18,404 nt of DNA, taken from assembly GCA_020725805.1 (NCBI GenBank), contig DYEF01000013.1, forward strand, positions 1 to 18,404. The letters run 5' to 3'. This DNA is from Bdellovibrio sp. Its GTDB lineage: Bacteria > Myxococcota > SpSt-1050. This document shows, piece after piece, positions 745 through 18,058 of the stretch. Position 1 is the stretch's first letter, and each line of letters starts with the position of its first letter. The notes under the pieces were generated by a model. That model searched no databases and was not told the origin of the DNA. It saw nothing but the letters and a program-made list of their open reading frames with translations. Made by a program: the position numbers and the translations under genes.

Positions 745-2274
745 CTATTTCTTTATTGAGGAAGTCGGGACGACCGAAAAGAGGGACTTCAGGTCGTCGT
801 CGTTAAACTGTATCCCGCCTCCCAAAAAGTAGTCCCTCGACATATTCGGATAATCTTTTCTGTAATTAAAGATATCATCGACGCCTGTGGAAATGAAGAT
901 ATAATCGTTCAGTGCGATCATTGCCGTTATTCTCATCCTTGGATTTTTACCCGGGAAGGCGAGTTCAAAGATATCCGTTTTGAATTTGAGCCTCTGCTGA
1001 AAGAGGTCGATATCAATTCCTGAACCGCCTGTGCTTTCAATGAGTCCTATTCTGAGCGTAATAAAATCGAATTTTTTTGCAAACTCAAGAGAGAGCTTGA
1101 GTTTGTTGGGCGGGCTGTTGATTGTCTCCTGTCTTTCTACCTCTTCGAATGTATCCCCGCTCTTTCTCTTGATAGACGTATAGGACTGGACTACATCGCC
1201 GCGCGGGTCGTCGATTATTTCGAGCAGATAGAATTTGTCTTCCTTTGGCTGAAGTTTTACGGCGAAGAATGACTTTGATACCTTTTGCAAAAAGCTGTAC
1301 TCATCTCTTATGTTGATGTTTATCTGGAGTCTCGAGAGCTGCTGTACGTAATCGGATATTCCGTCTGCAGTTTCCTCGATTGATCTGGCAATCTTCTCGT
1401 CCTTCAGTATCTTTCCGACTGTCCCTTCACCTTTTTCTATCGAATCAGTCACCTTCTCGATATTCGTGAGGGATTTGTCGAGTTTCTGCAGAATCTTCTT
1501 GAAATCCGAGACTCCTTCTGCGAGTTCACCCTCTCTCTTTCCTATTATATTCTGGACATTGTTGACGAGGGACTTGGTATCTCTGGTCAGGTCCTTGATA
1601 TTCTTGATAGCCTCGATGATATCCTCCTGAGAACCGCTTGATATTATTCTCAGGTTTTTACTGACCTCCTCGATATTCGACATAATCTGTCTCAGACTCT
1701 CGGTATTCTGCATAAGCAGTTCGGAGACCTGTTTTGATATTTTCTGTGTTTCGTTGACGATATCCTGCATTGAACCCTTGCCTTCTTTCGAGCCAAAAAC
1801 CTCGGCAAGCGATTTTGTAACCTCCCTGATATCCTGAGTAATGATATTCAGCGAGCCGAATACGTCCTCTATCTTGACCGGTTTTATGACATTCTTTATT
1901 TCATCTCCGTCCTTTAGTGCCGTCTGGTCGGATGTGCCCGGATTTATCTCGAGGTAATAATCACCGAGAATAGACGTGGACCTCTTGGTAATCGATGCAT
2001 TCTGGAAGAGTCTGATCTTCCTGTCGATTCTTATGAAAACCCTTGCGGCATTTCCTTCGAGTTCGATCTTTGATATTGCTCCGATGTTTACACCGGCGAT
2101 TACAACTTTTGTCTTATCCACAAGACCTGTTGTGTCGTCGAAAAGGGCTGACAGCTGATAACTGTTATCCTTATTGTAGCGGGATTTCGAGATATCGCCG
2201 ATGAATATGACAATCAGTACTATAATTAGTGCAGAGATGACTCCGACCTTGAGGGGAGTGATTAACCGGCTCAT
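745..2274 (-). CDS. mlaD: MlaD/MCE-domain lipid transport protein with long C-terminal extension
   Basis: This is the periplasmic substrate-binding component of an Mla-type phospholipid ABC transporter. At 509 residues it is far longer than E. coli MlaD (about 180). One N-terminal membrane helix lies near residues 9-26, followed by an MCE domain at about 38-117. Residues about 130-310 are strongly helical and heptad-like and carry a GEGTVGKIL segment often seen in long MlaD proteins. From about 315 the chain turns strand-rich (FYLLEIIDDPRGDV, FDFITLRIGLIE, RDYFLGGGIQF), resembling an outer-membrane barrel or beta-sandwich. The ATG is 1 nt beyond the mlaF stop, with AGAAAGG as ribosome binding site. 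MCE proteins form hexameric lipid channels. The extended helices and C-terminal domain suggest a bridge from inner to outer membrane without a soluble MlaC; none is encoded here. Confidence 0.9.
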   Translation of the reverse strand: MSRLITPLKVGVISALIIVLIVIFIGDISKSRYNKDNSYQLSALFDDTTGLVDKTKVVIAGVNIGAISKIELEGNAARVFIRIDRKIRLFQNASITKRSTSILGDYYLEINPGTSDQTALKDGDEIKNVIKPVKIEDVFGSLNIITQDIREVTKSLAEVFGSKEGKGSMQDIVNETQKISKQVSELLMQNTESLRQIMSNIEEVSKNLRIISSGSQEDIIEAIKNIKDLTRDTKSLVNNVQNIIGKREGELAEGVSDFKKILQKLDKSLTNIEKVTDSIEKGEGTVGKILKDEKIARSIEETADGISDYVQQLSRLQININIRDEYSFLQKVSKSFFAVKLQPKEDKFYLLEIIDDPRGDVVQSYTSIKRKSGDTFEEVERQETINSPPNKLKLSLEFAKKFDFITLRIGLIESTGGSGIDIDLFQQRLKFKTDIFELAFPGKNPRMRITAMIALNDYIFISTGVDDIFNYRKDYPNMSRDYFLGGGIQFNDDDLKSLFSVVPTSSIKK

Positions 2275-2275
2275 A

Positions 2276-3016
2276 TCAAACCTTTCTAAACCAGGTGTCC
2301 AGAAAACGTCTCAGGTTTTCATCCTGAGCCTTTCTTACTGACTCAGGAGGACCTTCGGCAATAATAACACCATTGTACAAAAACGCAATCTTATCTGCAA
2401 TCATAAATGCCGAACCGATATCGTGGCTTATGACTATCGATGTAACATTGAATTTTTCCCTTGCATCCAGAATCATCTCATTGACCGTCATCGTAGTTAT
2501 GGGGTCAAGGCCCGTTGTGGGTTCGTCATAGAGAATAATCTCCGGATTGAGTATGACTGCGCGGGCAAGACCTACCCGCTTTTTCATTCCGCCTGACAGT
2601 TCTGACGGATATTTCTCCTCTATATTGTAAAGTCCAAGTATGTTGAGCTTTTCACTGACTTTTTCCCGAATCTCATTCCCGGTGAGTCTTGTGTGTTCAA
2701 CAAGGGGGAAGGCCACATTCTCGTAGACCGTCATAGAGTCAAAGAGTGCGGAGTTCTGAAAGACCATCCCGAATGATTTCCGGACCTCATTGAGTTCCTT
2801 TTCGCTCAGATGTGTTATGTCCTTACCCTTAACGGAGATGGAGCCTTCGTCGGGACGTAAAAGTCCGATAATGTGTTTTATCAGGACGCTCTTACCCGAG
2901 CCGGATGCGCCGAGGATGACACATATCTCGCCTTCCTCGACACTGAGATTTATGCCCCTCAGGACTTCGTTTTCGCCAAATCTCTTCTTCAGGTTTCTGA
3001 TTTCTATCTTGGGCAT
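2276..3016 (-). CDS. mlaF: MlaF-type ABC transporter ATPase
   Basis: A 246-residue cytosolic ATPase that powers MCE-type lipid transport. Walker A is GASGSGKS at residues 36-43, the Q-loop Gln is at 87, the signature LSGGM at 140-144, and Walker B ending in Asp164-Glu165 is followed by the D-loop GLD; the H-loop is in VISHD near residue 198. LSGGMKKRVGLARA is typical of the MlaF/Ttg2A family. The start codon is 6 nt after the mlaE stop, and its GGAGG ribosome binding site overlaps the last codons of mlaE, so the two are probably translationally coupled. Length matches the family. No MlaB (STAS) partner is in the window. Confidence 0.96.
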   Translation of the reverse strand: MPKIEIRNLKKRFGENEVLRGINLSVEEGEICVILGASGSGKSVLIKHIIGLLRPDEGSISVKGKDITHLSEKELNEVRKSFGMVFQNSALFDSMTVYENVAFPLVEHTRLTGNEIREKVSEKLNILGLYNIEEKYPSELSGGMKKRVGLARAVILNPEIILYDEPTTGLDPITTMTVNEMILDAREKFNVTSIVISHDIGSAFMIADKIAFLYNGVIIAEGPPESVRKAQDENLRRFLDTWFRKV

Positions 3017-3022
3017 TGATAT

Positions 3023-3820
3023 TCAGCCTCCGAGGACATAACCCGGGAGATACTTGGTCATTACCACAGTCAGGAAATAGTCTACGACGAGAATCGTTAT
3101 GAAGCTTATAACCACAGAGCGGGTAGTTGCCTCTCCGACACCTTTTGCCCCTCCGCTGGCATAGAATCCGTTGAATGAACAGACCATTGTGAGGAAATAA
3201 CCGAAGACAGAGGCCTTGATGAGGCCGCTTATGACATCTACAGGGTCCATAAAGTATCTGATCTTGTCTATGAAAATACCGGCATCGATACCCATAAGAA
3301 GGACGGAGACAAGATAGGAACCCGCCACGCTTATGAGATTGAAGGCGGCCGTGAGTACCGGGAGCATAATAACACCGGCAATTACTTTCGGTGCAATGAG
3401 ATATTGTTTGGGGTCAACCCCCATTGTATAGAGGGCATCTATCTGTTCTGTTACTCTCATTGAGCCAAGTTCGGTGGACATTGCCGAGCCGGCCCTGCCC
3501 GTTACCATAAATGCCGTAAGAACAGGTCCGAGTTCGCGGGCAACGGAGATAGCAACCGTCGAGCCTACAAGTCCTTCCGCGTTGAATTTCGCAAAGACAT
3601 TGAGTGACTGCAGAGCCATAACCATTCCCGTGAATGCACCTGTAAGGAGGACCACAAAGAGCGACTGGATACCTATAGTGTCCATCTCTTTGAATATGTT
3701 TTTGAATCTGTAGGGAGGTCGGAAGGCGGCAATTATGACTTCTGCACACAGAAACAGGAACATTCCGAGTTGTTCAAAGGAATTCAGCAGTTTTCTTATC
3801 GTAATGTCGTCTTTTATCAT
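3023..3820 (-). CDS. mlaE: MlaE-type lipid ABC transporter permease
   Basis: A 265-residue inner-membrane permease and the first gene of the mla operon. Family hallmarks are GAFTGMVMALQ, then RELGPVLTAFMVTGRAGSAM and the MRVTEQIDAL segment, which place it firmly in the MlaE/Ttg2B family. It has about five or six hydrophobic segments and an amphipathic N-terminal helix before FRPPYRF. The ribosome binding site is poor, but starting at the first ATG leaves the usual N-terminal length. It acts with MlaF and MlaD to move glycerophospholipid between membranes; direction cannot be inferred. A TTGTCA/TATATT promoter ends about 23 nt upstream of the start. Confidence 0.95.
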   Translation of the reverse strand: MIKDDITIRKLLNSFEQLGMFLFLCAEVIIAAFRPPYRFKNIFKEMDTIGIQSLFVVLLTGAFTGMVMALQSLNVFAKFNAEGLVGSTVAISVARELGPVLTAFMVTGRAGSAMSTELGSMRVTEQIDALYTMGVDPKQYLIAPKVIAGVIMLPVLTAAFNLISVAGSYLVSVLLMGIDAGIFIDKIRYFMDPVDVISGLIKASVFGYFLTMVCSFNGFYASGGAKGVGEATTRSVVISFITILVVDYFLTVVMTKYLPGYVLGG

Positions 3821-4004: not shown

Positions 4005-5360
4005 ATGAGAAATTACGTATTGCTATTCGTTTTACCGGTTCTGCTTTTGGGTTGCTATGATGATTTAGCTGAAAATTTTACGGATATTCTTTATCAGGAC
4101 AAAGGGGTATCGGATATAGTAAATTATGATATTGCCGATGACTTTTCTGGTTCTTCAGATATCCGTTCTGATGATGCGTATGGTTCTGATGAACTGAAAA
4201 ATCAGGATTCGGGTGATTTTCCCGATTCATATATACCGGACAGCGGTGCGGCAGATATTATTTATCTGGATGTCTTTTCTGATGCTGAACTCAATGATGG
4301 TTGTCTCAGGGATTGCCGTGACAAAGATTGTGGTGATGATGGATGCGGGGGAGAGTGCGGGACTTGTGGTAACGATGAATTCTGTAGTAAGTCATTTAAG
4401 TGCGAGAAGCTCTGCAAAAACGAATGTGCATCAGAAGGGGTTATTAAATGTGACCCTGACGGGCGATTCAGAAGATGTGTGAAAGATTCTGATGGTTGTC
4501 TCGTTTATAGTGAACCACAGTTGTGTCCGGGTGGTGCTCTCTGTTTTGAAAACGAATGTGCCGATGTTAAATTTATTGCTCCCGCTGACAATTCCTCGCT
4601 GAAGAATCCGGTAGAGTTCAGGGTTGATACTACAAAGAATATCAAAAGAGTTGTCTATGATGCGGACGGATATCTCTTCGGTTCGTCGGAGGATGCGCAG
4701 TCGGGATTTTATTACAAATACAGTTTTAACAAATACGGCAAAAGGGTTATTACCGCCAGCGGATATGACGGGACGGCAAAAGATGCAAGACTGATTGCAA
4801 AGGCCTCCGTAAATATTACCGTTATTGAGGATATCCCGGAGGTTCCGTATTTCTGCCAGTATAAAAACTCAATATATCCCGAGTCTACCTGCCAGAATAC
4901 GTCAATAGCGATGCTTCTCAGATATTTCGGCTGGAACGGTAAACCGGATGATATTACTTCTGAATTCGGAAAGGATTATGCCCAGAGTCCTTCCGGACTT
5001 GCATACATCTTCAACACGCTCGCACAGAGAAGCGGAATAACGAAGAGACTGACTCCTCACGATGACGGGACAGTTCAGAACGTCAGGGAACTTCTTGCAA
5101 AGGGATTACCTGTGATCGTACACGGATATTTCACAAGTTACGGCCATGTCCTTGTGATTCTTGGATACAGGGACGGTAAATATATTGTAAACGACCCCGC
5201 CGGAAGGTGGTCGGAGGTTTTCAAGGGTGGTTATGCCGATTACTGTGATACGAGCAGTTACGGACCCAAAATAGAATATTCAGCCCCGGCCTTCGAGAAG
5301 GCAATTGCAACATGGGACGGGAGTACGCCGGCTCCTGTATGGTATCACGAGATCAAATAG
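4005..5360 (+). CDS. Lipoprotein with Asp-rich stalk, Cys-rich module and C39-like peptidase domain
   Basis: The signal peptide ends in a lipobox LLLGC with lipidated Cys17. Residue +2 is Tyr, so outer-membrane or surface sorting is plausible. Residues about 18-98 form an acidic low-complexity linker. Residues about 98-185 are Cys-rich and start with the CGDDGCGGECGTC pattern frequent in deltaproteobacterial surface proteins. An Ig-like strand-rich segment (about 190-275) follows, and then a papain-like C39_2 domain from VPYFCQ. The likely catalytic set is Gln285 (oxyanion), Cys296, His381 (GHVLVI) and Asp397 (NDP). All are present, so the protein should be an active thiol peptidase or related hydrolase. 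There is no ABC transporter beside it, so it is not a bacteriocin-processing C39 exporter. It appears monocistronic. The substrate is unknown. Confidence 0.88.
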   Translation: MRNYVLLFVLPVLLLGCYDDLAENFTDILYQDKGVSDIVNYDIADDFSGSSDIRSDDAYGSDELKNQDSGDFPDSYIPDSGAADIIYLDVFSDAELNDGCLRDCRDKDCGDDGCGGECGTCGNDEFCSKSFKCEKLCKNECASEGVIKCDPDGRFRRCVKDSDGCLVYSEPQLCPGGALCFENECADVKFIAPADNSSLKNPVEFRVDTTKNIKRVVYDADGYLFGSSEDAQSGFYYKYSFNKYGKRVITASGYDGTAKDARLIAKASVNITVIEDIPEVPYFCQYKNSIYPESTCQNTSIAMLLRYFGWNGKPDDITSEFGKDYAQSPSGLAYIFNTLAQRSGITKRLTPHDDGTVQNVRELLAKGLPVIVHGYFTSYGHVLVILGYRDGKYIVNDPAGRWSEVFKGGYADYCDTSSYGPKIEYSAPAFEKAIATWDGSTPAPVWYHEIK

Positions 5361-5501
5361 GATTTCTGCTTTCAGATTTTTTCTTCTCTGTAAGGTCAAT
5401 AATAACCGGTTCGGACCTGTTTGGGCAAGGATATCCTTTCCGGTTGATATATTCATTCGGGCAGGAATCAAACCGTTCTGCCAGTAGGTATCGGACAATT
5501 A

Positions 5502-7715
5502 TTAATAAGCAAGACAGGGTGAGCCTCCCGGTAAAGAGGATATTGTCCAGTTTGCACTGTCGAAATAGACGTCTCCCGATACTCTTGTGATGGACAGACC
5601 TTCCTTGACAGACGTAATTTTGGGGTTGAAATAATCAAGTAGCAATCCGTTATAATACAGACAGAGGGTTTCCGGTGAACTGTTTCTAAGGTCCCTGCCT
5701 ATTATCCTGTCGGCTCCTCCAAGAACGGTACAGTTATGCTCGTTGCCGAAATATACTGAACCGTAGGAGACGATCAGGGCGGTCTCTTTGGGCATTATAT
5801 AGCTTTTGGACATCCTGCTGATTTTTACGGTCTTATCAGAGCAGTTGCTGACTGAGATAAGGTTTGCTGCCAGTCTGGTTGTGCCGTTGTTTATAATCTC
5901 GATGAATTCACCGCTTGTGTCAGCTCCCGAAGGATTCGGGAGGACTTCGTTGATGATGAGTGAAGTTCCGTTCTCGGAGTAGGACTCCGTGCTGAATTTC
6001 GTCTTCGCTGACGGATTATTGTATAGGTCGAGGCAGTATATCTCGGCAAGATATTCCTTGTATGAATCCTGAATTCTGATTTTGTATTCGAAGTGCTGCA
6101 TAAAACTGTATGAAGAGTATGAAAATGTCTCGTCAAGGTCCTCCTTGTATAAAAAATCTGCAAAGAGCAGACAGGGTACCGATGAATCCGCCTCGATATA
6201 AACATAATCCTTTATCTGCAAAATATTCCTGATTGTAACATAAGGCGGGTTAGTCTCTTCTGCTTTAGAAAAAAGCATACAGATCCCTGTATCTGCATCA
6301 TTTATAAACAGGCACATCTCTTCCTCTCCTTGAATCTGGTCTTTGATGGTACACAGAAATCTTCCCTCTTCTGTCCCTTTTGTACAGAGCATACTGAGCA
6401 GCTGAATCTCACCCCTGAGATAGACTTTTTCGGTGTCCATAGAATATTTTTGGGAGATAAATTCAAAGAATCTCGTGTTGGAGCCGACTCTAAATGAGGA
6501 GGGATAAGAGAGTCTGATGGACGGCATTTCCGGTGTTCTGATTTTTGCAACCTCCGAATCGGTTGCAAATGAATTCTGATAGATATCTTTCAGTGTCGGT
6601 GTTGCAACAAGAGAGTAATCATTCGAATACTTTAGTCTGAGAAGCGGTTTTAGGATAACTGTTTTACCTGTTGCTGTGCTAATTCCCTGAATGCGTGCCT
6701 TTTCCTGAGACAGAAGGTATAGACAGTCCTGAGAGCTACACTCCACATCTTCATCAAATTCGGCTATGATTTCGAAACCGGTCTCTGTCTCCCTTACAGA
6801 AACGGATACCGGGGAAGGCGGGAAGATATCTTTCATAAAAATACTGTTCTGGCTATCAGGGGTCGAACCCTTATCACTTACTGAATATCCCCAGTTCTTT
6901 TCATCTGACTGCCTGTACGGATTTATTCTCTCGAATGAGATACCCTTTCTGGCCTTTGAAAAAGGTCTGAACTCACTCAGTAGTCTTCCTTCTTCGCTGA
7001 ACAGGCGGATAGATTTGAGAGATGTATTCGAAAGTCCGTTTTTTCCGAATTTTCCTGATACGTAAATCAAAGGCTTTTCAGTAAATTCTTTAACATCACT
7101 TAGTATAATTCTTTGAGCCCCTTTCGGAAGGATGAATGAATTGTTCCTGAACAGAAGTTTCTGCGCCCTGTTTTCATCGATTTTAATATAATATCCGCGT
7201 AAATCGGTGTCATTTTCGGAACAGTTGAACAGTTCTATAAATTCATAATTGTAATTTTCAGACGGATAACTGAGCACCTCGTTTATTACCAGACAGGTAT
7301 CCGTGTTCTTCTTTTTCTTTATAAAATATGTATCCTCCGATACGAAATTCCCGCCGTAATAGTAGGATAAGAGCAGATTGTCCTCGGACATAATATCTCC
7401 CTTGAGCATGAGTCTGTAATACCTGTCGGGCTCTACATTTTCGGAATAGACCGTGAGTATATCTCCCGTTTCATTGATTTCGAAATTTGAAATTTCTGTA
7501 TCTGTTTCTATGTTCTGAATATCCAGAAGCCGTATGTCGGCCGGAGTAATGTTCTTCTTGTTTACCGGTTTTGAGAATCTGATGCTGACTCTGAGCATAT
7601 TTTCGAATTCTCCGGATTTGGGAAGAATCTCACTTACAAAAAAATCGCCCTGTTCGGGTGAAGAAAGACAGGAGAAGAGGGGAAGAACAATGGAAATGAT
7701 TAAGAAAAGTTTCAT
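5502..7715 (-). CDS. Lipoprotein with two lamin-tail domains and Ig-like domains
   Basis: A 737-residue predicted lipoprotein: lipobox LFSC with Cys16. In order I see a Big_5-like Ig domain (about 25-130, VSIRFSKPVN...), a lamin-tail domain (about 143-290, starting LVINEVLSYPS and FIELFN), another Ig-like segment (about 298-390), an unassigned middle region and a second lamin-tail domain (about 590-737, starting LIINEVLPNPS and GEFIEIIN). Such arrays are typical of exported or cell-surface proteins; bacterial LTDs are thought to be binding or anchoring modules. No catalytic site is recognisable. The ATG is 2 nt after the stop of the upstream gene, whose final codons contain the AAAGGAGG ribosome binding site, so the pair is co-translated. 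Confidence 0.88.
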   Translation of the reverse strand: MKLFLIISIVLPLFSCLSSPEQGDFFVSEILPKSGEFENMLRVSIRFSKPVNKKNITPADIRLLDIQNIETDTEISNFEINETGDILTVYSENVEPDRYYRLMLKGDIMSEDNLLLSYYYGGNFVSEDTYFIKKKKNTDTCLVINEVLSYPSENYNYEFIELFNCSENDTDLRGYYIKIDENRAQKLLFRNNSFILPKGAQRIILSDVKEFTEKPLIYVSGKFGKNGLSNTSLKSIRLFSEEGRLLSEFRPFSKARKGISFERINPYRQSDEKNWGYSVSDKGSTPDSQNSIFMKDIFPPSPVSVSVRETETGFEIIAEFDEDVECSSQDCLYLLSQEKARIQGISTATGKTVILKPLLRLKYSNDYSLVATPTLKDIYQNSFATDSEVAKIRTPEMPSIRLSYPSSFRVGSNTRFFEFISQKYSMDTEKVYLRGEIQLLSMLCTKGTEEGRFLCTIKDQIQGEEEMCLFINDADTGICMLFSKAEETNPPYVTIRNILQIKDYVYIEADSSVPCLLFADFLYKEDLDETFSYSSYSFMQHFEYKIRIQDSYKEYLAEIYCLDLYNNPSAKTKFSTESYSENGTSLIINEVLPNPSGADTSGEFIEIINNGTTRLAANLISVSNCSDKTVKISRMSKSYIMPKETALIVSYGSVYFGNEHNCTVLGGADRIIGRDLRNSSPETLCLYYNGLLLDYFNPKITSVKEGLSITRVSGDVYFDSANWTISSLPGGSPCLAY

Positions 7716-7717
7716 AA

Positions 7718-8269
7718 TTAATCCTCCTTTTTCTGAATGGTTTTATATTTGTGACAGGTCAGTATATTTATTCTGGAGTTGAGCAGATTGTATTCCTTCT
7801 CAAGGGTTTCTCTCTCCTGATTCTGGTCTGTCTTTTCCAGTTTCTTCAGGATCTCGACGAGTCTGTAATAGGTCTCCGAAAGCGTGTTCTGAAGTGTTAT
7901 ATATTTGTCAAGGCTGCTCTGGTAATCCTTTTTCAGACTGAGTTCATCCTTCGAAAAGAATAGTTCGTCAAGAGACCATCTGAGGCTGACTTCGATATTC
8001 CATCCGGATTTGAAGTTTGTAAGAAGGTAGGGTGAGGTCTCGGCAAGTTTGTTCGACTCAAGGTCATTCTCTTCGAATCTTCCCCCGACCCGCAGTTCGG
8101 GCAGGAGTGCCTTTAGATGTGAATCCTTTATTCTTTCTTTCGTTTCATTTGGATTAAACATTATGCATTCATCCATTGCCTTCATAAGTTTGTTTAGTTC
8201 AACAGGTTCCTTAAAGCTCACATCTGAAGTAATCATCAGCATCATATAAATTATTTCAGCCGTCAGCAT
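7718..8269 (-). CDS. Small exported protein, possibly TolC-like or remnant of one
   Basis: A 183-residue protein counted from ATG 8267-8269. This start is chosen because AGGAGGT sits 4 nt upstream; an upstream in-frame ATG at 8320 lacks such a site. The N-terminus (MLTAEIIYMMLMITS) looks like a short signal peptide but has no basic n-region, which is unusual. The middle, with LLPELRVGGRFEEND and WNIEVSLRWSLDELFFSKDEL, followed by a long helix to about residue 175, resembles a half-repeat of outer-membrane TolC-like proteins: beta-strand pair, then coiled coil. A full TolC would be over 400 residues. It precedes and overlaps the signals of the lamin-tail lipoprotein, so the two may act together at the outer membrane. 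Function is unassigned. Confidence 0.7.
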   Translation of the reverse strand: MLTAEIIYMMLMITSDVSFKEPVELNKLMKAMDECIMFNPNETKERIKDSHLKALLPELRVGGRFEENDLESNKLAETSPYLLTNFKSGWNIEVSLRWSLDELFFSKDELSLKKDYQSSLDKYITLQNTLSETYYRLVEILKKLEKTDQNQERETLEKEYNLLNSRINILTCHKYKTIQKKED

Positions 8270-8465
8270 CTGCACCTCCTTTGTGAGCGCCAAAGGCTTG
8301 GTTTTTATTAGCCTCTGCAATTTCCGTTCCAGATTTTTTCTTTGCGGTGCCGGATATAGAAGCCCGCAAGGTGCCGTTGTAGTATAAATTTATTATGTGT
8401 CCGGCATTGATTCTGTACTGTTATTCTCTTGCGATAATCCCGAATATTGAGAGTTCAGTTTCTCC

Positions 8466-8493
8466 TTGATTTATTCTTCTTTTGGTCTAATCT
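8466..8493 (+). promoter_or_regulatory. Possible promoter of the fumarase-to-mazG operon
   Basis: TTGATT (8466-8471) and TAATCT (8488-8493) are 16 nt apart, 36 nt before the GTG start. Both boxes deviate from consensus. The rest of 8270-8528 shows only a TTGCGG/CCGCAA inverted repeat at 8342-8369 and a TATACT-like box on the minus strand at 8386-8381 that could serve the opposite operon. Confidence 0.35.
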
Positions 8494-8528
8494 ATCTCCG
8501 TTTTATTTTCTCTTACGGAGGATTTGCC

Positions 8529-9386
8529 GTGGAAAGCAATATAATTTTTGAGAATGCTATGAATCTTATAGAACAGGCATCGACCGTCCTTCCCGATGAT
8601 GTAAAAACAGCCATAGAAAAGGCGTATCAGACTGAGGAGAGCGGTTCGAGGGCCAGAAATGCACTTGAAATCATTTTGGAAAATATCAGACTCGCAAAGG
8701 AGAACCGTCTGCCTATCTGTCAGGATACCGGAACTCTGATATTTTATATAGACAGGCCGAAGGGAATCACAGAGAAAATCATTAAGGATGAAATAATCAG
8801 GGCGGTCAGGGAATCTACCAGAAAAGGTATTTTAAGACCAAATGCGGTCGATTCCGTTACCCAGAAGAATTCGGGCGACAATACAGGAATCGGAAGTCCT
8901 TATTTTCATTTTGAGGAGTCTGAATCGGATTCGTTGAGGATACGGCTCATACTTAAGGGGGGAGGGAGTGAGAATGTCAGTATACAGTATTCACTGCCGA
9001 ATTCTGAGCCCGGGGCGGGCCGGGATATAGAAGGTGTCAAGAAGTGTATTCTCGATGCTGCATTTAAGGCACAGGGATTCGGGTGTGCCCCCGGTGTGCT
9101 TGCTGTCGGTGTCGGTGGTGACAGAATGACTTCTTATATGTGTGCAAAGGAGCAGCTCTTCAGAAGACTCGATGACAGGAATACGGATGTTACACTGAGG
9201 GAGATGGAAGAGGAGGTATACAATATCGCAAATATGCTCGGCATCGGTCCTATGGGATTCGGCGGGAAGACTACTGTGCTCGGAGTCAAAATCGGCAAGC
9301 GGCACAGAGTCCCGGCCTCGTTCTTCGTCTCAATCGCATATATGTGCTGGGCCTTCAGAAGGGCCGAAGTAACTTTCAGGATTTGA
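8529..9386 (+). CDS. Class I fumarate hydratase (or L-tartrate dehydratase) alpha subunit
   Basis: The 285-residue [4Fe-4S] hydro-lyase subunit would interconvert fumarate and malate in the cytosol. The start is GTG at 8529, with GGAGG at 8517-8521; the upstream in-frame ATG at 8466 adds a non-conserved tail. Likely cluster ligands are Cys64 (ICQDTGT), Cys186 (GCAPG) and Cys273 (YMCW). Other conserved stretches are GGGSENVS, GVGGDR, GIGPMGFGGKTT and the ending KRHRVPASFFVSIAY. The fold corresponds to the N-terminal part of single-chain FumA. The beta subunit, which normally follows, is absent from the window; the next gene is a PP-loop ATPase 5 nt downstream. Tartrate dehydratase TtdA is the main alternative, since the alpha subunits are hard to tell apart. 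Confidence 0.93.
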   Translation: MESNIIFENAMNLIEQASTVLPDDVKTAIEKAYQTEESGSRARNALEIILENIRLAKENRLPICQDTGTLIFYIDRPKGITEKIIKDEIIRAVRESTRKGILRPNAVDSVTQKNSGDNTGIGSPYFHFEESESDSLRIRLILKGGGSENVSIQYSLPNSEPGAGRDIEGVKKCILDAAFKAQGFGCAPGVLAVGVGGDRMTSYMCAKEQLFRRLDDRNTDVTLREMEEEVYNIANMLGIGPMGFGGKTTVLGVKIGKRHRVPASFFVSIAYMCWAFRRAEVTFRI

Positions 9387-9391
9387 GAGAT

Positions 9392-10423
9392 ATGGGAGAA
9401 AAGAAAGTAAAGGCATTATCCTTGATGTCGGGAGGTCTGGATTCCACTCTTGCTACCAAAATAATTATGGATATGGGTATTGAAGTGATAGCGGTTAATT
9501 TCACGAGTCCGTTCTGTACCTGTACCTCCAGACATAAAAAGGAACTCGGCTGCAAAAACGAGGCATTGAAGATTTCCCGTCAGCTTGGTGTAGATGTAAG
9601 GCTTGTCCCGAAGGGCAGGGATTATATCGCTCTTGTCAGAAATCCGAAATTCGGCTACGGCTCGGCTATAAATCCCTGTATCGATTGCAGAATTTTTATG
9701 TTCAGGAAGGCAAAGGAGATTATGGCCGAGGTGGGTGCCTCTTTTATTATTACCGGCGAGGTGCTGGGTCAGAGACCGATGAGCCAGAGGAGAGACACAA
9801 TTCATAAGATTGAGAGAGAATCCGGACTTGAGGGATTGATAATACGACCACTCTCTGCTACTCATTTTGAACCGACAGTGTTTGAGAAGGAGGGAATCGT
9901 GGACCGAAACAGGCTCCTCAGTATCGAGGGCAGGAGCCGCAATATTCAGATCAGGCTGGCAGAAGAGTACAATATCTCGGATTATCCCTGTCCTGCCGGA
10001 GGTTGTCTTCTGACCGATAAGCGTTTTGCAGAGAAACTCAGGGATTATTTTGAGCACAATCAGGACGATGATGATTATATCAGACAGATGGAGTATCTGA
10101 AAATCGGTCGGCATTTCAGACTCAGAAACGGGACGAAGATTATTATCGGACGCGACGAGGCAGAGAATGAGCGCCTGATTCTTCTGAACAGGGGCGAGAA
10201 CTATCTTGTCGAGAGCGAATTCCCCGGGCCTGTGGCATTGATTTTCGGAGAAAAGTCGGATGAGAATCTGTCGTTTGCTCTCACGGCACTTAAGCGGTTT
10301 AACAGAAAGACACCCGAAAATCCGGTTTATATAGTTTCGAGAGGTACATCTAAGGAGGAAATCTCCCATATCAGCGAATTTGCGGAAGAGCTCACTCTGT
10401 ATCAGATCGGTATCGACAGATGA
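9392..10423 (+). CDS. PP-loop tRNA thiolation-like protein (MnmA/ThiI type) with NFACT-R-like C-terminal region
   Basis: The 343-residue protein has an adenylating PP-loop SGGLDS at residues 13-18. It is Cys-rich: Cys42, Cys44, Cys54, a PCIDC pair at 96/99, and CPAGGC at 200/205. The GEVLGQRPMSQRR stretch (123-134) is typical of the MnmA-like proteins annotated as tRNA 2-/4-thiouridine synthases. From about 206 a basic region (YLKIGRHFRLRNGTKIIIGRDEAENE) resembles the NFACT-R/DUF814 RNA-binding domain that I recall being fused to such enzymes. The likely role is ATP-dependent sulfur insertion into tRNA. The ATG at 9392 is preferred over 9344, which would extend into the fumarase gene with non-conserved residues. 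The ribosome binding site is weak. The stop overlaps the next start (ATGA). Confidence 0.82.
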   Translation: MGEKKVKALSLMSGGLDSTLATKIIMDMGIEVIAVNFTSPFCTCTSRHKKELGCKNEALKISRQLGVDVRLVPKGRDYIALVRNPKFGYGSAINPCIDCRIFMFRKAKEIMAEVGASFIITGEVLGQRPMSQRRDTIHKIERESGLEGLIIRPLSATHFEPTVFEKEGIVDRNRLLSIEGRSRNIQIRLAEEYNISDYPCPAGGCLLTDKRFAEKLRDYFEHNQDDDDYIRQMEYLKIGRHFRLRNGTKIIIGRDEAENERLILLNRGENYLVESEFPGPVALIFGEKSDENLSFALTALKRFNRKTPENPVYIVSRGTSKEEISHISEFAEELTLYQIGIDR

Positions 10424-13464: not shown

Positions 13465-13505
13465 AAAAAAAATCTCAGGTGATAAGAAATCTTATACACC
13501 TGAGA
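13465..13505 (-). terminator. Intrinsic terminator of the four-lipoprotein operon
   Basis: TCTCAGGTG at 13473-13481 pairs perfectly with CACCTGAGA at 13497-13505. Five more inner pairs form after one bulged base, with a small AT-rich loop. The eight A residues at 13465-13472 give a U8 tract after the stem in minus-strand transcripts. There is no T-run on the plus-strand side, so it serves the minus strand. Confidence 0.9.
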
Positions 13506-13538
13506 CCTTGATAAACCTGAATAAAATCTGTGAATTAT

Positions 13539-13820
13539 CTATTTTTTCAGATGCGGATTGAGTACTTCCTGTGCCGCGTTCTCCTCTACACAGGTGGCTG
13601 TGTTGTCTTCATTGTAATTGCAGCGCTTTATAACAGATTTCCCTTTGTCGCAGCTGGTGCCAAGAATAACATAATTGGCACAATCTCCCTCCCAGTATGT
13701 AAAATATGCATAGTCTTTTTCCCATCTGGTATGGGTTATGCTTCTGACCGTTGTGCTGCAGGCCGATATAAGTATTGCAAGGGATAAAATTATAAAAATT
13801 ATTTTAATGGTCTTTTTCAT
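13539..13820 (-). CDS. Small lipoprotein, fourth of a tandem set
   Basis: The 93-residue precursor has signal peptide MKKTIKIIFIIL..., lipobox LISAC and lipidated Cys21. The mature part has four further Cys at 47, 57, 67 and 77, exactly 10 residues apart. The last two form the C-x9-C pair that aligns with the pairs in the three sister proteins. It ends LNPHLKK, comparable to the NPRSLY end of its neighbour. GGGAGGA is a strong ribosome binding site. The gap from the preceding gene is 15 nt, and the terminator lies downstream. No known family is recognised. Location is predicted as periplasmic face of the outer membrane or cell surface. Confidence 0.82.
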   Translation of the reverse strand: MKKTIKIIFIILSLAILISACSTTVRSITHTRWEKDYAYFTYWEGDCANYVILGTSCDKGKSVIKRCNYNEDNTATCVEENAAQEVLNPHLKK

Positions 13821-13835
13821 ATCTTCTTCCTCCCG

Positions 13836-14111
13836 TTAATACAGTGAACGTGGATTTACATTTTCGAGGATGAGGGTATCCTTGCAGTTCTCCTCCTTGT
13901 TTGCCTGATTGAGGGTGCAGATGCGGATATAATAGTCAAAGAGTCTTACCTTGTTTTTGTCGGAACCTACTGTCTGTGCCTTCGGAAGCATCAGGAGTTT
14001 TGCCGTCTTGTTTTCACCCATATATTCGTTGGCAATCAGGACTTTTTTGGGGGCACAGGAAACTGCAAATAAAGCAGCGGTTAGTATAGCTAAAATCAAT
14101 ATACGTTTCAT
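13836..14111 (-). CDS. Small lipoprotein, third of a tandem set
   Basis: The 91-residue precursor has lipobox FAVSC and lipidated Cys19. After the Cys comes APKKVLIA, similar in pattern to the sisters (basic pair then aliphatic). Cys65 and Cys76 form a C-x10-C pair inside a strand-like YYIRIC...C segment, and the chain ends ENVNPRSLY. The AAGGAGGAG ribosome binding site is strong. The gene lies 12 nt after the preceding gene and 15 nt before the next. No known domain is recognised. It is probably a small beta-rich, disulfide-bonded envelope protein, which is an inference. Confidence 0.82.
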   Translation of the reverse strand: MKRILILAILTAALFAVSCAPKKVLIANEYMGENKTAKLLMLPKAQTVGSDKNKVRLFDYYIRICTLNQANKEENCKDTLILENVNPRSLY

Positions 14112-14123
14112 ATTTGCTCCTCC

Positions 14124-14417
14124 TTATCTGACATTGGATGAAACATTCATAGTGGCCGTCGGGCAGCTGATATCCGTCTTGCCGTCGCAGGCCCTTTCAC
14201 AGGATATATTGTCATTCTTCTCTTCGCACATCCAGAATTCGTGAACGGCCGAACCCGGAAAGATTATGTAGTGGGTTGTCTTGTAGGTCTGGAAATTCAT
14301 TATAGGTCTTGTTGCGTGGTCATCTGCTCCGATAATACGGCGGCTTGTGCAGCCGGCAAGACCCAGAGCCGTAAGAATTGCTGCAATAAGTAACAAAATA
14401 ACTATTCCTTTTCTCAT
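14124..14417 (-). CDS. Small lipoprotein, second of a tandem set
   Basis: The 97-residue precursor starts at ATG 14415-14417. This start is chosen because AGGGAGGT lies just upstream and a signal peptide begins there; the frame is open farther upstream (to 14492) but that part overlaps the preceding gene. Lipobox LAGC gives lipidated Cys23, followed by TSRRIIG. Cys64 and Cys73 make the shared C-x8-C pair in FWMCEEKNDNISC, and Cys77 and Cys85 follow. The gap from the preceding gene is 13 nt. No known family is recognised. Confidence 0.82.
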   Translation of the reverse strand: MRKGIVILLLIAAILTALGLAGCTSRRIIGADDHATRPIMNFQTYKTTHYIIFPGSAVHEFWMCEEKNDNISCERACDGKTDISCPTATMNVSSNVR

Positions 14418-14430
14418 GGCAGACCTCCCT

Positions 14431-14658
14431 TTATTCCTTGAGTTCGACTTTAATGTTGCGGCAGTTTGATAAAGCGCCGTTCTGGGCAACATCGCACTTG
14501 ATTAATCCCTGTTCGTCATCATCATCCCAGATGAATTTTACGACACCCTGTCTGCCTGTTGAACCCACGATCAGTCTTGGCCCTGCACAGGCGGATAAGA
14601 CCGAGAGCAGGAAAATCAGTAATAAAAGCGAAACTATAACCTTTTGAAACCTTTTCAT
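14431..14658 (-). CDS. Small lipoprotein, first of a tandem set
   Basis: A 75-residue precursor starting at ATG 14656-14658, with AAGGAGGT 6-8 nt upstream. The frame continues upstream to 14751, but that part is not signal-like. Lipobox LSAC gives lipidated Cys24. The mature part, only 51 residues, has AGPRLIVG after the Cys, an acidic WDDDDEQG turn and the Cys55/Cys66 pair (C-x10-C), ending KVELKE. As first gene of the operon it lies 102 nt downstream of the shared 33-nt element. No known domain is recognised. Confidence 0.8.
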   Translation of the reverse strand: MKRFQKVIVSLLLLIFLLSVLSACAGPRLIVGSTGRQGVVKFIWDDDDEQGLIKCDVAQNGALSNCRNIKVELKE

Positions 14659-14760
14659 GCCAATACCTCCTTGGTTATGTCTGAAAATATTGTATATATG
14701 ATTATTGCTGCAGGATTGCATATAGTTGAGTTTTTCTCTATCAGATACCACAAAATTATT

Positions 14761-14793
14761 AAATCACCCCTTATGGGTATTTTATGGGTATTT
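14761..14793 (-). promoter_or_regulatory. Shared 33-nt regulatory element, copy 1
   Basis: Read on the minus strand toward the lipoprotein operon, the element comprises AAATACCC, AAAATACCC and GGGGTGATTT: two direct half-sites and one inverted. It matches 27 of 33 positions, without gaps, to 18062-18094 and has the same orientation relative to the downstream genes. It is 102 nt upstream of the first lipoprotein and 226 nt upstream of the divergent kinase. The best candidate binder is the LuxR-type response regulator encoded at 17438, an inference. Confidence 0.65.
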
Positions 14794-14814
14794 CTATGCT
14801 TACAGGTGTTCTGT

Positions 14815-14890
14815 GAGCTGTAAAACAGAATGTAACTGCAACATAAAAATGTTACATTTCTGTTTTGGAACAACAGAGCCGTAAAACAGA
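14815..14890. repeat. Direct and inverted repeats in the kinase upstream region
   Basis: A 15-nt direct repeat, GAGCYGTAAAACAGA, occurs at 14815-14829 and 14876-14890 with one mismatch. Between the copies, TGTAAC (14831-14836) and GTTACA (14851-14856) form an inverted repeat extended by CAGAA/TTCTG. TCTGTT (14859-14864) pairs with AACAGA (14872-14877). The layout suggests binding sites for a dimeric regulator of the kinase gene. The remainder of 14891-15019 shows nothing clear. Confidence 0.5.
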
Positions 14891-15019
14891 TTTGACAATA
14901 GACCGGTTTCCTGATAATTGGAAGGCCGCTCAGGCGGGTAGCAGACTATTAGGTATAATCGGTAATGTCAGTTAAGCTTATGTCGCATTGAAAATCTAAA
15001 TATAAACAGCAAAATTCTT

Positions 15020-17419
15020 ATGCCCAAGTTAAATAAAGGCAGAATATTGATATATTTTCTATTTGGTTTGAATATCACAATCACTGTACTGGGTTTCTTT
15101 TCGCTTCTCTCTTCTCCCTATACAGGTATCAGAACGGCAATAGAGAACGAATCTGTGGTGATTAAGGTCGACAGGAATAGCCCTGCAAAACTGGCCGGAT
15201 TACAGGATAGGGATATATTACTTGACGTAGAGAATCTGAAAATTCCTTTCTTTACCTTTAGTCCGGACCCTGATTATGTGAGCGACAGGAAGGATTACGA
15301 TCTCATTTGGGAATCACTGATACGGTTGGGAGATGTTGTTAAACTGAATGAGTCTGTGAATATTACGGTAAAGCGGGGGTCAGAAACCCTCTCTTTTTCG
15401 GTTGTGCCTGAGCATTTCAGTTTATTCGGGGTGATAAAACGGACACTGCCTGTATATATTGTTGCGTGGTCGTTTATGATAACGGCTTTTCTGGTTTTAA
15501 GGAAGAAGTCCAATGACATCTCTGTTGCGAATTTCATAGTTGGTACAGGTGTCTGTGCAAGTTTTGCAGCACTGGCTTCATATACCGTACGCGACCTCTA
15601 TTTCCCCTATATAGCGTTCAGGATTCTCAAGGAGGCAAATTACCTTGGTGCATTGTCTTCTTCTTTCGCTTTTTTGCACCTGATTCTGGTCTTTCCGAGG
15701 AAGAAGAAGATCGCAGAGAGGTATCCGTGGATTACCGGCGGTGTCTATCTGGTTCTACTGCTGGTATTGCTTGCGAACTATACAGGCCTATTCAGTAATA
15801 TGCATCTGACGTCATATCTGCCGATCAGTCTCTGTCTGATAACCTTTGTTCTTCTTCTAGTCATAGATTTCTTCAGGGAGAAGGATGTTGTATTCAGAAG
15901 GCAGATACAGTGGGTTGTCTTTGGGTTTTCTGCCGGGCTTCTTGCATGGCTCATCTTTACATCTGTACCTGTTCTATTCGGAGCCCCCATACTGTCGGAG
16001 GAGATAGCGCTCCTGCCTTCGATTGTCATTCCGCTCAGTTTTGCGTTTGCGATAACCAGATATAAACTGATGGATATAGGTACGATTTTCGATTACATAG
16101 TGATTTACGGTATGACGATACTGATACTTCAGGGGATAGAACTGACATTTCTTGGTGTAGTATCTCCTTATATCAGTGCATATATGGGACGGGCTCCTAT
16201 TATATCTGTTGTTGCCGTACTTCTGATTGTCTTTCTGTATATCCCTATAAGAAATACGGTCAAGAGAATGACCGAGAGATTCTTCAAAAGAGGCACATAC
16301 GATATCGACAGGGAAATAATGCGGTTTAATATGGAACTTAGTCTTTCTGAAGAGAGACTGCCGTTTGAGAAGTATTTTATATTTGTCAGAAATCTTATAG
16401 GTAGTTCCGGCTGTATAGTCCTCCTGAATGGCAGACAATTGATCTATTCGGATTCCGAGGGCACGGCTCTGATGGGTCTGAGACTTGCCCAAAATGAACA
16501 TGTGGCAGAATATCTTTCAAAACTCAGAGAGCAAGTTTTCGGTTTCGAAATAATCGATGAGGGACTTGCGCTGGACGATTCACTCAAAGGTGCACTCTTC
16601 GTCCCTGTAAGTACTTCAAAGGAATTCTATGTTGTGATATTTCTGGAAAAATGGAACAACACACCTTATTCTAAAAAAGACAGGAGTCTGATAGGTGCCC
16701 TCTCATTGAACCTGTCCCAATTGCTGGAAGTCGAGCGGCTTAGAATAGAGAAATCGGCACTCGAAGAGGAACTCAGAAGTCAGAAAAACCATATCCTGAA
16801 GGAGATGCACGACGGTCTTGGCAGCATACTGACTCATATTATTGTGGCTTCGCAGGTAGCAAGCGGTAGTCTGAACAAGGAGAAGGATGCGGAAAAGGTC
16901 AGAAATATGATCGAGATAATACATAATCACTCGCGGGAAGCAATGGATTTTATGAGAGTAGGTCTCTTGCTTCTGGAGAATCCCGAAAGCACCGTCGGAA
17001 CCATTGTATCCGGGTTCAGGCACAGATACAGAAATACGCTTCAGTCCTATGGTATAAGTGCAGAATATTTCGTTGATAAGGATGTTGAATCCGAATATCT
17101 GGGGGCAAGAGAAAATCTCAATTGTATCAGGTCTGTTCAGGAGGCTGTCAATAATATTCTGAAGCACTCAGGAGCAGATAAGATAGAGATGCATTTTACA
17201 AAGCAGGGGAATAACCTGAATATCACCATAAAAGACAACGGAAGGGGATTTGATGTAGTAAAAACGGGGAGCGGGTCGGGACTAAGAAACATAAAGGAAA
17301 GGATGTCGGAGATAAAAGGTTCTTTCGAAATAAAATCATCAATCGGAACCGGCACCGAACTTCTGCTCACAATACCCTTAAAATCACCGGTTGTGGTTAT
17401 GGATAACCGTTCTGTTTAG
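15020..17419 (+). CDS. Multi-pass histidine kinase with periplasmic PDZ-like domain (NarX/DegS type)
   Basis: The 799-residue sensor kinase has a membrane helix at about 10-30, a PDZ-like extracytoplasmic domain at about 31-130 (VIKVDRNSPAKLAGLQDRDI, later VNITVKRG), and roughly eight or nine further membrane segments from about 139 to 410. A GAF-like cytosolic region (about 415-570), a short coiled coil, and a HisKA_3 dimerisation helix with His597 in EMHDGLGS follow. The HATPase domain has N-box Asn711 and G1-box Asp739 (DNGRGF), then GSGSGLRNI. The HisKA_3 type pairs with LuxR-type regulators such as the next gene, 18 nt downstream. No Shine-Dalgarno sequence precedes the ATG, yet the membrane helix begins right after it, so the start is likely correct. 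The PDZ suggests sensing of exposed peptide termini in the periplasm, by analogy with DegS protease. Confidence 0.93.
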   Translation: MPKLNKGRILIYFLFGLNITITVLGFFSLLSSPYTGIRTAIENESVVIKVDRNSPAKLAGLQDRDILLDVENLKIPFFTFSPDPDYVSDRKDYDLIWESLIRLGDVVKLNESVNITVKRGSETLSFSVVPEHFSLFGVIKRTLPVYIVAWSFMITAFLVLRKKSNDISVANFIVGTGVCASFAALASYTVRDLYFPYIAFRILKEANYLGALSSSFAFLHLILVFPRKKKIAERYPWITGGVYLVLLLVLLANYTGLFSNMHLTSYLPISLCLITFVLLLVIDFFREKDVVFRRQIQWVVFGFSAGLLAWLIFTSVPVLFGAPILSEEIALLPSIVIPLSFAFAITRYKLMDIGTIFDYIVIYGMTILILQGIELTFLGVVSPYISAYMGRAPIISVVAVLLIVFLYIPIRNTVKRMTERFFKRGTYDIDREIMRFNMELSLSEERLPFEKYFIFVRNLIGSSGCIVLLNGRQLIYSDSEGTALMGLRLAQNEHVAEYLSKLREQVFGFEIIDEGLALDDSLKGALFVPVSTSKEFYVVIFLEKWNNTPYSKKDRSLIGALSLNLSQLLEVERLRIEKSALEEELRSQKNHILKEMHDGLGSILTHIIVASQVASGSLNKEKDAEKVRNMIEIIHNHSREAMDFMRVGLLLLENPESTVGTIVSGFRHRYRNTLQSYGISAEYFVDKDVESEYLGARENLNCIRSVQEAVNNILKHSGADKIEMHFTKQGNNLNITIKDNGRGFDVVKTGSGSGLRNIKERMSEIKGSFEIKSSIGTGTELLLTIPLKSPVVVMDNRSV

Positions 17420-17437
17420 TGATAGGGGGAAAGTATT

Positions 17438-18058
17438 ATGAAGATTGTAATTGTGGAAGATGATTCGCTTGTCAGGGAGAATCTGAAAATATTACTTGGC
17501 GGCGAGAGAGATATCGAGATTGCCGGAGCCTATTCTTCGGCCGAGGAGGCACTCCCCGTGCTGAAAGAGATCAGTCCCGATATTATTCTGGTTGATATAG
17601 GGTTGCCGAAAATGAGCGGAATCGAGCTGATTAGGGAGAGCAAGTCTCTTCTCCCCGATGTGGAGATAATGGCCTTTACGGTCTTCGAGGATAAGGATAC
17701 GGTATTTGCTGCACTCAAAGCCGGTGCGACAGGATATATACTAAAAGGCGCTACTCCAAGGGAACTCGTCGAAGCCCTGCATAACTTATATGAAGGCGGC
17801 TCGCCGATGAGTCCGCGTATTGCAAGGGCAATTATTATCGACCTTCAGGATGCAAATGACGAACAGTATTTACTGAGCGCAAGAGAGAAGGAGATTCTCT
17901 CCGATGTCGAAAAGGGTCTCTCCTATAAGGAGATCGCCGTCAGACTGAATATAAGCCCTTCTACCGTTCACTCACATATCAAGAAGATTTACAGAAAACT
18001 TCACGCCAAGAGCCGCAAAGAGGCGTTTCTGAAGGCAAGGCGAAAAGGGATCTTGTAA
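17438..18058 (+). CDS. NarL/LuxR-family response regulator
   Basis: The 206-residue DNA-binding regulator has a receiver domain with Glu7-Asp8-Asp9 acidic pocket, phospho-acceptor Asp53, and Lys in YILKG. The C-terminal LuxR helix-turn-helix begins LSAREKEIL and includes GLSYKEIAVRLNISPSTVHSHIKKIYRKL. It is the cognate partner of the kinase immediately upstream and probably co-transcribed. AGGGGGA serves as ribosome binding site. The 33-nt element begins 4 nt after its stop. A second copy lies upstream of the kinase and the divergent lipoproteins. The regulator may therefore bind both sides of its own operon. Confidence 0.96.
   Translation: MKIVIVEDDSLVRENLKILLGGERDIEIAGAYSSAEEALPVLKEISPDIILVDIGLPKMSGIELIRESKSLLPDVEIMAFTVFEDKDTVFAALKAGATGYILKGATPRELVEALHNLYEGGSPMSPRIARAIIIDLQDANDEQYLLSAREKEILSDVEKGLSYKEIAVRLNISPSTVHSHIKKIYRKLHAKSRKEAFLKARRKGIL

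Follow-up and report, generated by a model that had tools for sequence, protein, structure and literature searches.

The YgdI/YgdR family (NF033216) comprises lipoproteins of very small size whose mature part is short and beta-rich. Exclusion and immunity lipoproteins are typically small, located in the envelope and patchily distributed, and EexN carries cysteines. Tandem arrays of lipoprotein genes are known as well, e.g. the lpl cluster of Staphylococcus aureus (PMC4470592). In this work we describe four consecutive lipoprotein genes, LP1-LP4, that share some traits with each of these systems. The likeness to the lpl cluster (PMC4470592) is that of consecutive, paralogue-like lipoprotein genes. 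LP1-LP4 differ from it in that they are four fixed, separately conserved families whose order is constant; they are also much smaller, carry a Cys pair and have no Pfam match. With YgdI/YgdR they share a very small size and a short mature part that appears beta-rich, and with TrbK (TIGR04359) and EexN (NF033894) the character of small secreted lipoproteins. All three were rejected as candidate families. The YgdI/YgdR model, whose cut-off is 42 bits, gives 16.7 bits for LP1 and 14.5 for LP2, with the signal peptide making up most of the aligned region; TrbK gives 12.7 bits for LP2 (cut-off 23) and EexN 12.7 bits for LP4 (cut-off 33), both in the signal peptide region. No match above cut-off to LP1-LP4 was found in Pfam, NCBIfam or PHROGs, none in PADLOC at E <= 0.1 and none among PDB sequences; Rfam gave no match, and a search of the literature found nothing on the operon. 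The description of these proteins as an uncharacterised family, made in a first-pass annotation of the sequence, thus holds.

The window, by which we mean the whole stretch of 18,404 nucleotides that was analysed, is the entire contig C6 of genome G000 (3.29 Mb, 115 contigs). The four genes lie on its minus strand between 14658 and 13539. LP1 (14431..14658) encodes a lipoprotein of 75 aa with its lipobox Cys at position 24 and a Cys55/Cys66 pair, LP2 (14124..14417) one of 97 aa with Cys23 and Cys64/Cys73, LP3 (13836..14111) one of 91 aa with Cys19 and Cys65/Cys76, and LP4 (13539..13820) one of 93 aa with Cys21 and Cys67/Cys77. Each begins with a signal peptide and lipobox, the intergenic gaps are just 12-15 bp, and a strong Shine-Dalgarno sequence, read directly from the DNA, precedes every ATG (aaggaggt, gggaggt, aaggagga and gggagga, respectively). 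On all these points, i.e. coordinates, lengths, cysteine positions and a strong ribosome-binding site for each gene, the first-pass annotation was confirmed. Further along the same strand the window holds a set of genes for lipid transport of the Mla type (MlaD, ABC ATPase and MlaE, 745-3820), and it also contains two fast-evolving genes for large lipoproteins, at 4005-5360 and 5502-7715, of which one has a C39-like peptidase domain in addition to a Cys-rich segment and the other has lamin-tail and Big_5 domains.

The region between LP1 and a divergent histidine kinase gene (14659..15019) is the presumed site of the operon promoter. It contains two 15-nt direct repeats, GAGCyGTAAAACAGA, at 14815 and 14876, with a distance of 61 bp between them, as well as an 11-nt sequence repeated in tandem, TTATGGGTATT, at 14771 and 14782; these repeats (14771-14890) are possible candidate sites for a regulator. 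The divergent genes, at 15020-18058, encode a 799-aa sensor kinase and a NarL-type response regulator. The kinase has an N-terminal PDZ-like domain (below the Pfam cut-off) and several hydrophobic segments, followed by HisKA_3/HATPase_c; in the congener G001 the kinase/regulator pair does not adjoin the operon. At the other end an inverted repeat, CTCAGGTGATAAGAAATCTTATACACCTGAG (13475..13509), lies between LP4 and a convergent MazG gene. It was read from the sequence and is not among the output of the repeat scan, and it is likely a putative terminator shared by the two convergent genes.

A search with LP2 recovered an orthologue in G001 (67% identity; contig JAOAFA010000008.1, 'Deltaproteobacteria bacterium SKW273') and another in G002, which belongs to a different family of the same order (34%). 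When the GTDB species collection was scanned with LP2, using short exact peptides and so with little sensitivity, the congener was the sole match. G001 and G002 both carry all four genes with their order unchanged. Profiles of LP1-LP4 built from three genomes, and then from six, were searched over 195 genomes of the phylum, where the full set with its order kept was also found in G098, G134 and G140, three genomes of one distant family. The complete set in identical order is therefore present in six of the 195 genomes, and a seventh, G174, of the same distant family, carries a broken and decayed set. No further convincing matches were found among the 195 genomes, the remainder being marginal (E 0.002-0.05) and isolated; since at most about 28 candidates were scored per genome, a very diverged copy could escape this search. 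Extra or shuffled copies were found in none of the genomes searched. The search of related genomes with profiles, proposed as a check in the first-pass annotation, thus found separate orthologues of all four proteins, identically ordered, in five other genomes; the link between the four as one family is partial.

Between the congeners G000 and G001 the four lipoproteins are 67-81% identical, compared with 65-89% for neighbouring enzymes and 55-61% for two neighbouring lipoproteins. This level would fit constrained subunits, not variable antigens. LP1-LP4 are old orthologous lineages that have stayed separate; they are neither a recent array nor one of interchangeable members.

The cysteines are the most constant feature of these proteins. 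The lipobox Cys is invariant in six of six orthologues of each family, and LPAM_1 scores above cut-off for two of the LP4 orthologues. The paired cysteines near the C-terminus, noticed in the first reading of the window, were borne out: they are invariant in every family, with an exact spacing of 11 residues in LP1, 9 in LP2, 11 in LP3 and 10 in LP4 (6/6 each). Because the pairs are so exactly kept, and because six genomes carry orthologues of all four proteins together in one order, the observation exceeds what chance would produce. LP2 has a second invariant pair, 77/85, that had been missed earlier, and in LP1 both CAGPR and EQG are invariant. A common layout of lipobox Cys, a basic residue with hydrophobic residues after it, and a Cys pair near the C-terminus is found in 24 of 24 sequences, the basic position being Gln in two LP3 sequences. 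The basic-aliphatic stretch had been described as usual; it occurs in all four proteins, including LP4 (VRSI, with KFV or RYV in relatives). A further claim, that LP4 carries cysteines at exact 10-residue steps (47, 57, 67, 77), is correct for the LP4 of the window. However, the ladder is missing from all relatives, the congener's cysteines being at 47/53/63/73 and LP4 of the distant family lacking the first two. As it holds only in the window sequence, we regard it as a coincidence and reject it as a meaningful pattern.

Are the four proteins ancient tandem duplicates of one family, as had been suggested? We compared profiles of the mature parts, with signal peptides removed, against 150 column shuffles. 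LP1-LP3 (score 22.6) and LP1-LP4 (score 18.0) align in register and above all shuffles (0/150 for both). LP1-LP2 and LP3-LP4 are borderline, with 7/150 and 10/150 shuffles reaching the observed score, and LP2-LP3 and LP2-LP4 do not rise above the 150 shuffles. In an earlier run with untrimmed alignments LP2-LP4 had exceeded its 60 shuffles, a result that the larger run did not repeat. With the cysteines masked, the observed score was reached by 23/150 shuffles for LP1-LP3 and by 7/150 for LP1-LP4, and the homology signal thus appears to rest largely on the cysteines. The suggestion is plausible in so far as LP1 is linked by profile to LP3 and LP4, though mostly via the cysteines, and the comparison does not link LP2 to LP3 or LP4 beyond chance. 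That LP1, LP3 and LP4, at least, share an ancestor is suggested, and is made likely by the profile comparison, the shared layout and the LP3 model described below.

The mature parts of LP3 and LP2 were modelled, each from an alignment of two sequences. In the LP3 model (mean pLDDT 78) the chain forms a beta meander of four strands (6-12, 17-29, 36-49 and 55-67, mature numbering), and Cys47 and Cys58 (mature numbering) are predicted to lie on the two strands of its final hairpin. For LP2 the model, with a pLDDT of 43, is not credible; its weak strands also place Cys42 and Cys51 on a hairpin. As to a common fold with an equivalent disulfide, the other check that had been proposed, the LP3 meander with its hairpin Cys pair is a credible model and the LP2 model is unusable; the meander is a fold modelled for LP3 alone. 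Structure searches that started from the LP3 model returned only weak matches of a generic beta-sheet kind: the best Foldseek E value is 0.067, and the best Z score, 6.3 to 7jta, is below the level that the tool calls meaningful.

In the six genomes the flanking genes change with the genus, and the four lipoprotein genes stay together. The operon is flanked by MazG and the kinase/regulator pair in the window, by MazG and a Tad minor-pilin cluster in G001, by a prepilin peptidase gene in G002, by a lipoprotein gene and a kinase/regulator pair (adjoining LP4) in G098, by SfsA in G134 and by two tRNAs, with an integrase beyond, in G140. A convenient example of loss is provided by G098 and its congener G096, where the block is exactly present in one and absent from the other between the same two flanking genes. 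In G096 these genes are 31 bp apart, without LP1-LP4, and the 31-nt spacer aligns, with a 14-bp gap, to the final 40 bp of LP4 and the sequence next to it, a match that 3 of 2000 shuffles equalled. As the congener lacks exactly LP1-LP4 and carries a scar that matches the LP4 end, the block was lost as a unit, and deletion would be the simplest reading of the spacer. Immediately upstream of its operon, G098 has a separate gene for a 139-aa Cys-rich lipoprotein (L018, 8574-8993), which is kept in G096 (L108) after the loss. The G174 copy of LP1 is interrupted by an in-frame stop, its LP2 is truncated to half, and LP3 and LP4 are gone. With only a stopped LP1 and half of LP2 kept, the set decays once broken, and it seems to be of little value in that state. 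Together, the G096 deletion and the G174 decay indicate that the patchy distribution of the operon is at least partly due to loss.

Since the same order and the same Cys pairs recur in distant relatives, where the genes are kept or lost together, LP1-LP4 probably work as one unit. We propose, with a probability of about 0.5, that they form a single transcription unit whose products, four small secreted lipoproteins likely in the outer membrane, are subunits of a single complex. The four genes would be transcribed together, and the outer membrane is the most likely place of anchorage for their products; we assume this sorting because Asp is absent from position +2, by a rule that was derived in enterobacteria. 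Each mature part (51-75 aa) would most likely be a compact beta domain with its last hairpin closed by a disulfide, and the four would act together as subunits of one heteromeric complex, whose role may be accessory to the envelope or lie in secretion or binding. The complex is what we infer from the co-retention, the constant order, the loss as a unit and the slow evolution, although co-retention could also reflect the co-regulation of independent proteins. Four small surface lipoproteins with binding or adhesive roles, co-transcribed after tandem duplication and acting independently, would account for the in-register similarity of LP1 to LP3 and LP4 and for the layout common to all 24 sequences. 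That said, we think this unlikely, because a fixed order, all-or-none presence and decay once broken exceed the needs of interchangeable duplicates, and no genome has extra or shuffled copies. Lipoproteins that exclude phage or conjugative entry, or give immunity to a competitor's toxin, would be expected to show what is seen here: a patchy distribution, relocation, and losses inside a single genus. Nevertheless, no match was found, at the sensitivity used, in viral contigs (searched with LP3), plasmids (LP3 and LP4) or phages (LP2), nor in PADLOC, and the entry-exclusion models score far below cut-off. Furthermore, the four proteins evolve no faster than their housekeeping neighbours, and the G140 integrase lies beyond two tRNA genes, so that the operon is outside that element. 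We consider such a role improbable.

The neighbouring genes raise two other possibilities, both of which we rate as very improbable. One is that LP1-LP4 are accessory outer-membrane lipoproteins of a Tad/Flp-type pilus, as G001 has a TadE/TadG/Flp-like minor-pilin cluster with the operon about 450 bp downstream of it on the same strand, and G002 has a prepilin peptidase gene next to the operon. A conserved Tad location was rejected, because Tad genes adjoin the operon only in G001 and, via a different gene, in G002; there is no pilus gene beside it in the window, G098, G134 or G140. The link fails because the orthologous Tad cluster of G000 and G002 is on another contig, without the operon, and because TadE occurs in 147 of 195 genomes and the operon in seven, which makes co-occurrence uninformative. 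The minor-pilin-like cluster is itself conserved (L004, 6132-10780 in G001; L086, 7447-11113 in G000; L087, about 4800-10150 in G002) and comprises TadE, a TadG-like protein, a second TadE-like protein, a protein of 266-287 aa without a Pfam match and a Flp-like peptide of 61-82 aa ending in NLPIP. The other possibility is that the operon is an output of the PDZ-containing sensor kinase and NarL-type regulator, e.g. as part of an envelope-stress regulon. The divergent pair adjoins LP1 in the window, with direct repeats in the shared intergenic region, and a pair adjoins LP4 in G098. Against this, the G098 regulator is not an orthologue of the window regulator, having better matches elsewhere in G000, and G096 retains the pair though it lacks the operon. 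On these grounds the link fails; no such pair is found beside the operon in G001, G002, G134 or G140. With the Tad and kinase links gone, what remains is a self-contained four-gene unit, for which a heteromeric lipoprotein complex would be the best-supported mechanism.

Tentatively, this complex may be a dedicated four-subunit outer-membrane assembly that is so far undescribed, made of four beta-meander domains that arose by ancient duplication and are each closed by a disulfide, and inherited and lost as a unit across the phylum. The analysis turns four unannotated small open reading frames into four defined families with fixed partners and a testable prediction of fold and disulfide, and the natural presence/absence pair of G098 and G096 opens their function to genetics. 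Lipoproteins this small usually go unannotated, and a conserved unit of four such parts points to a missing piece of the envelope biology of this phylum.
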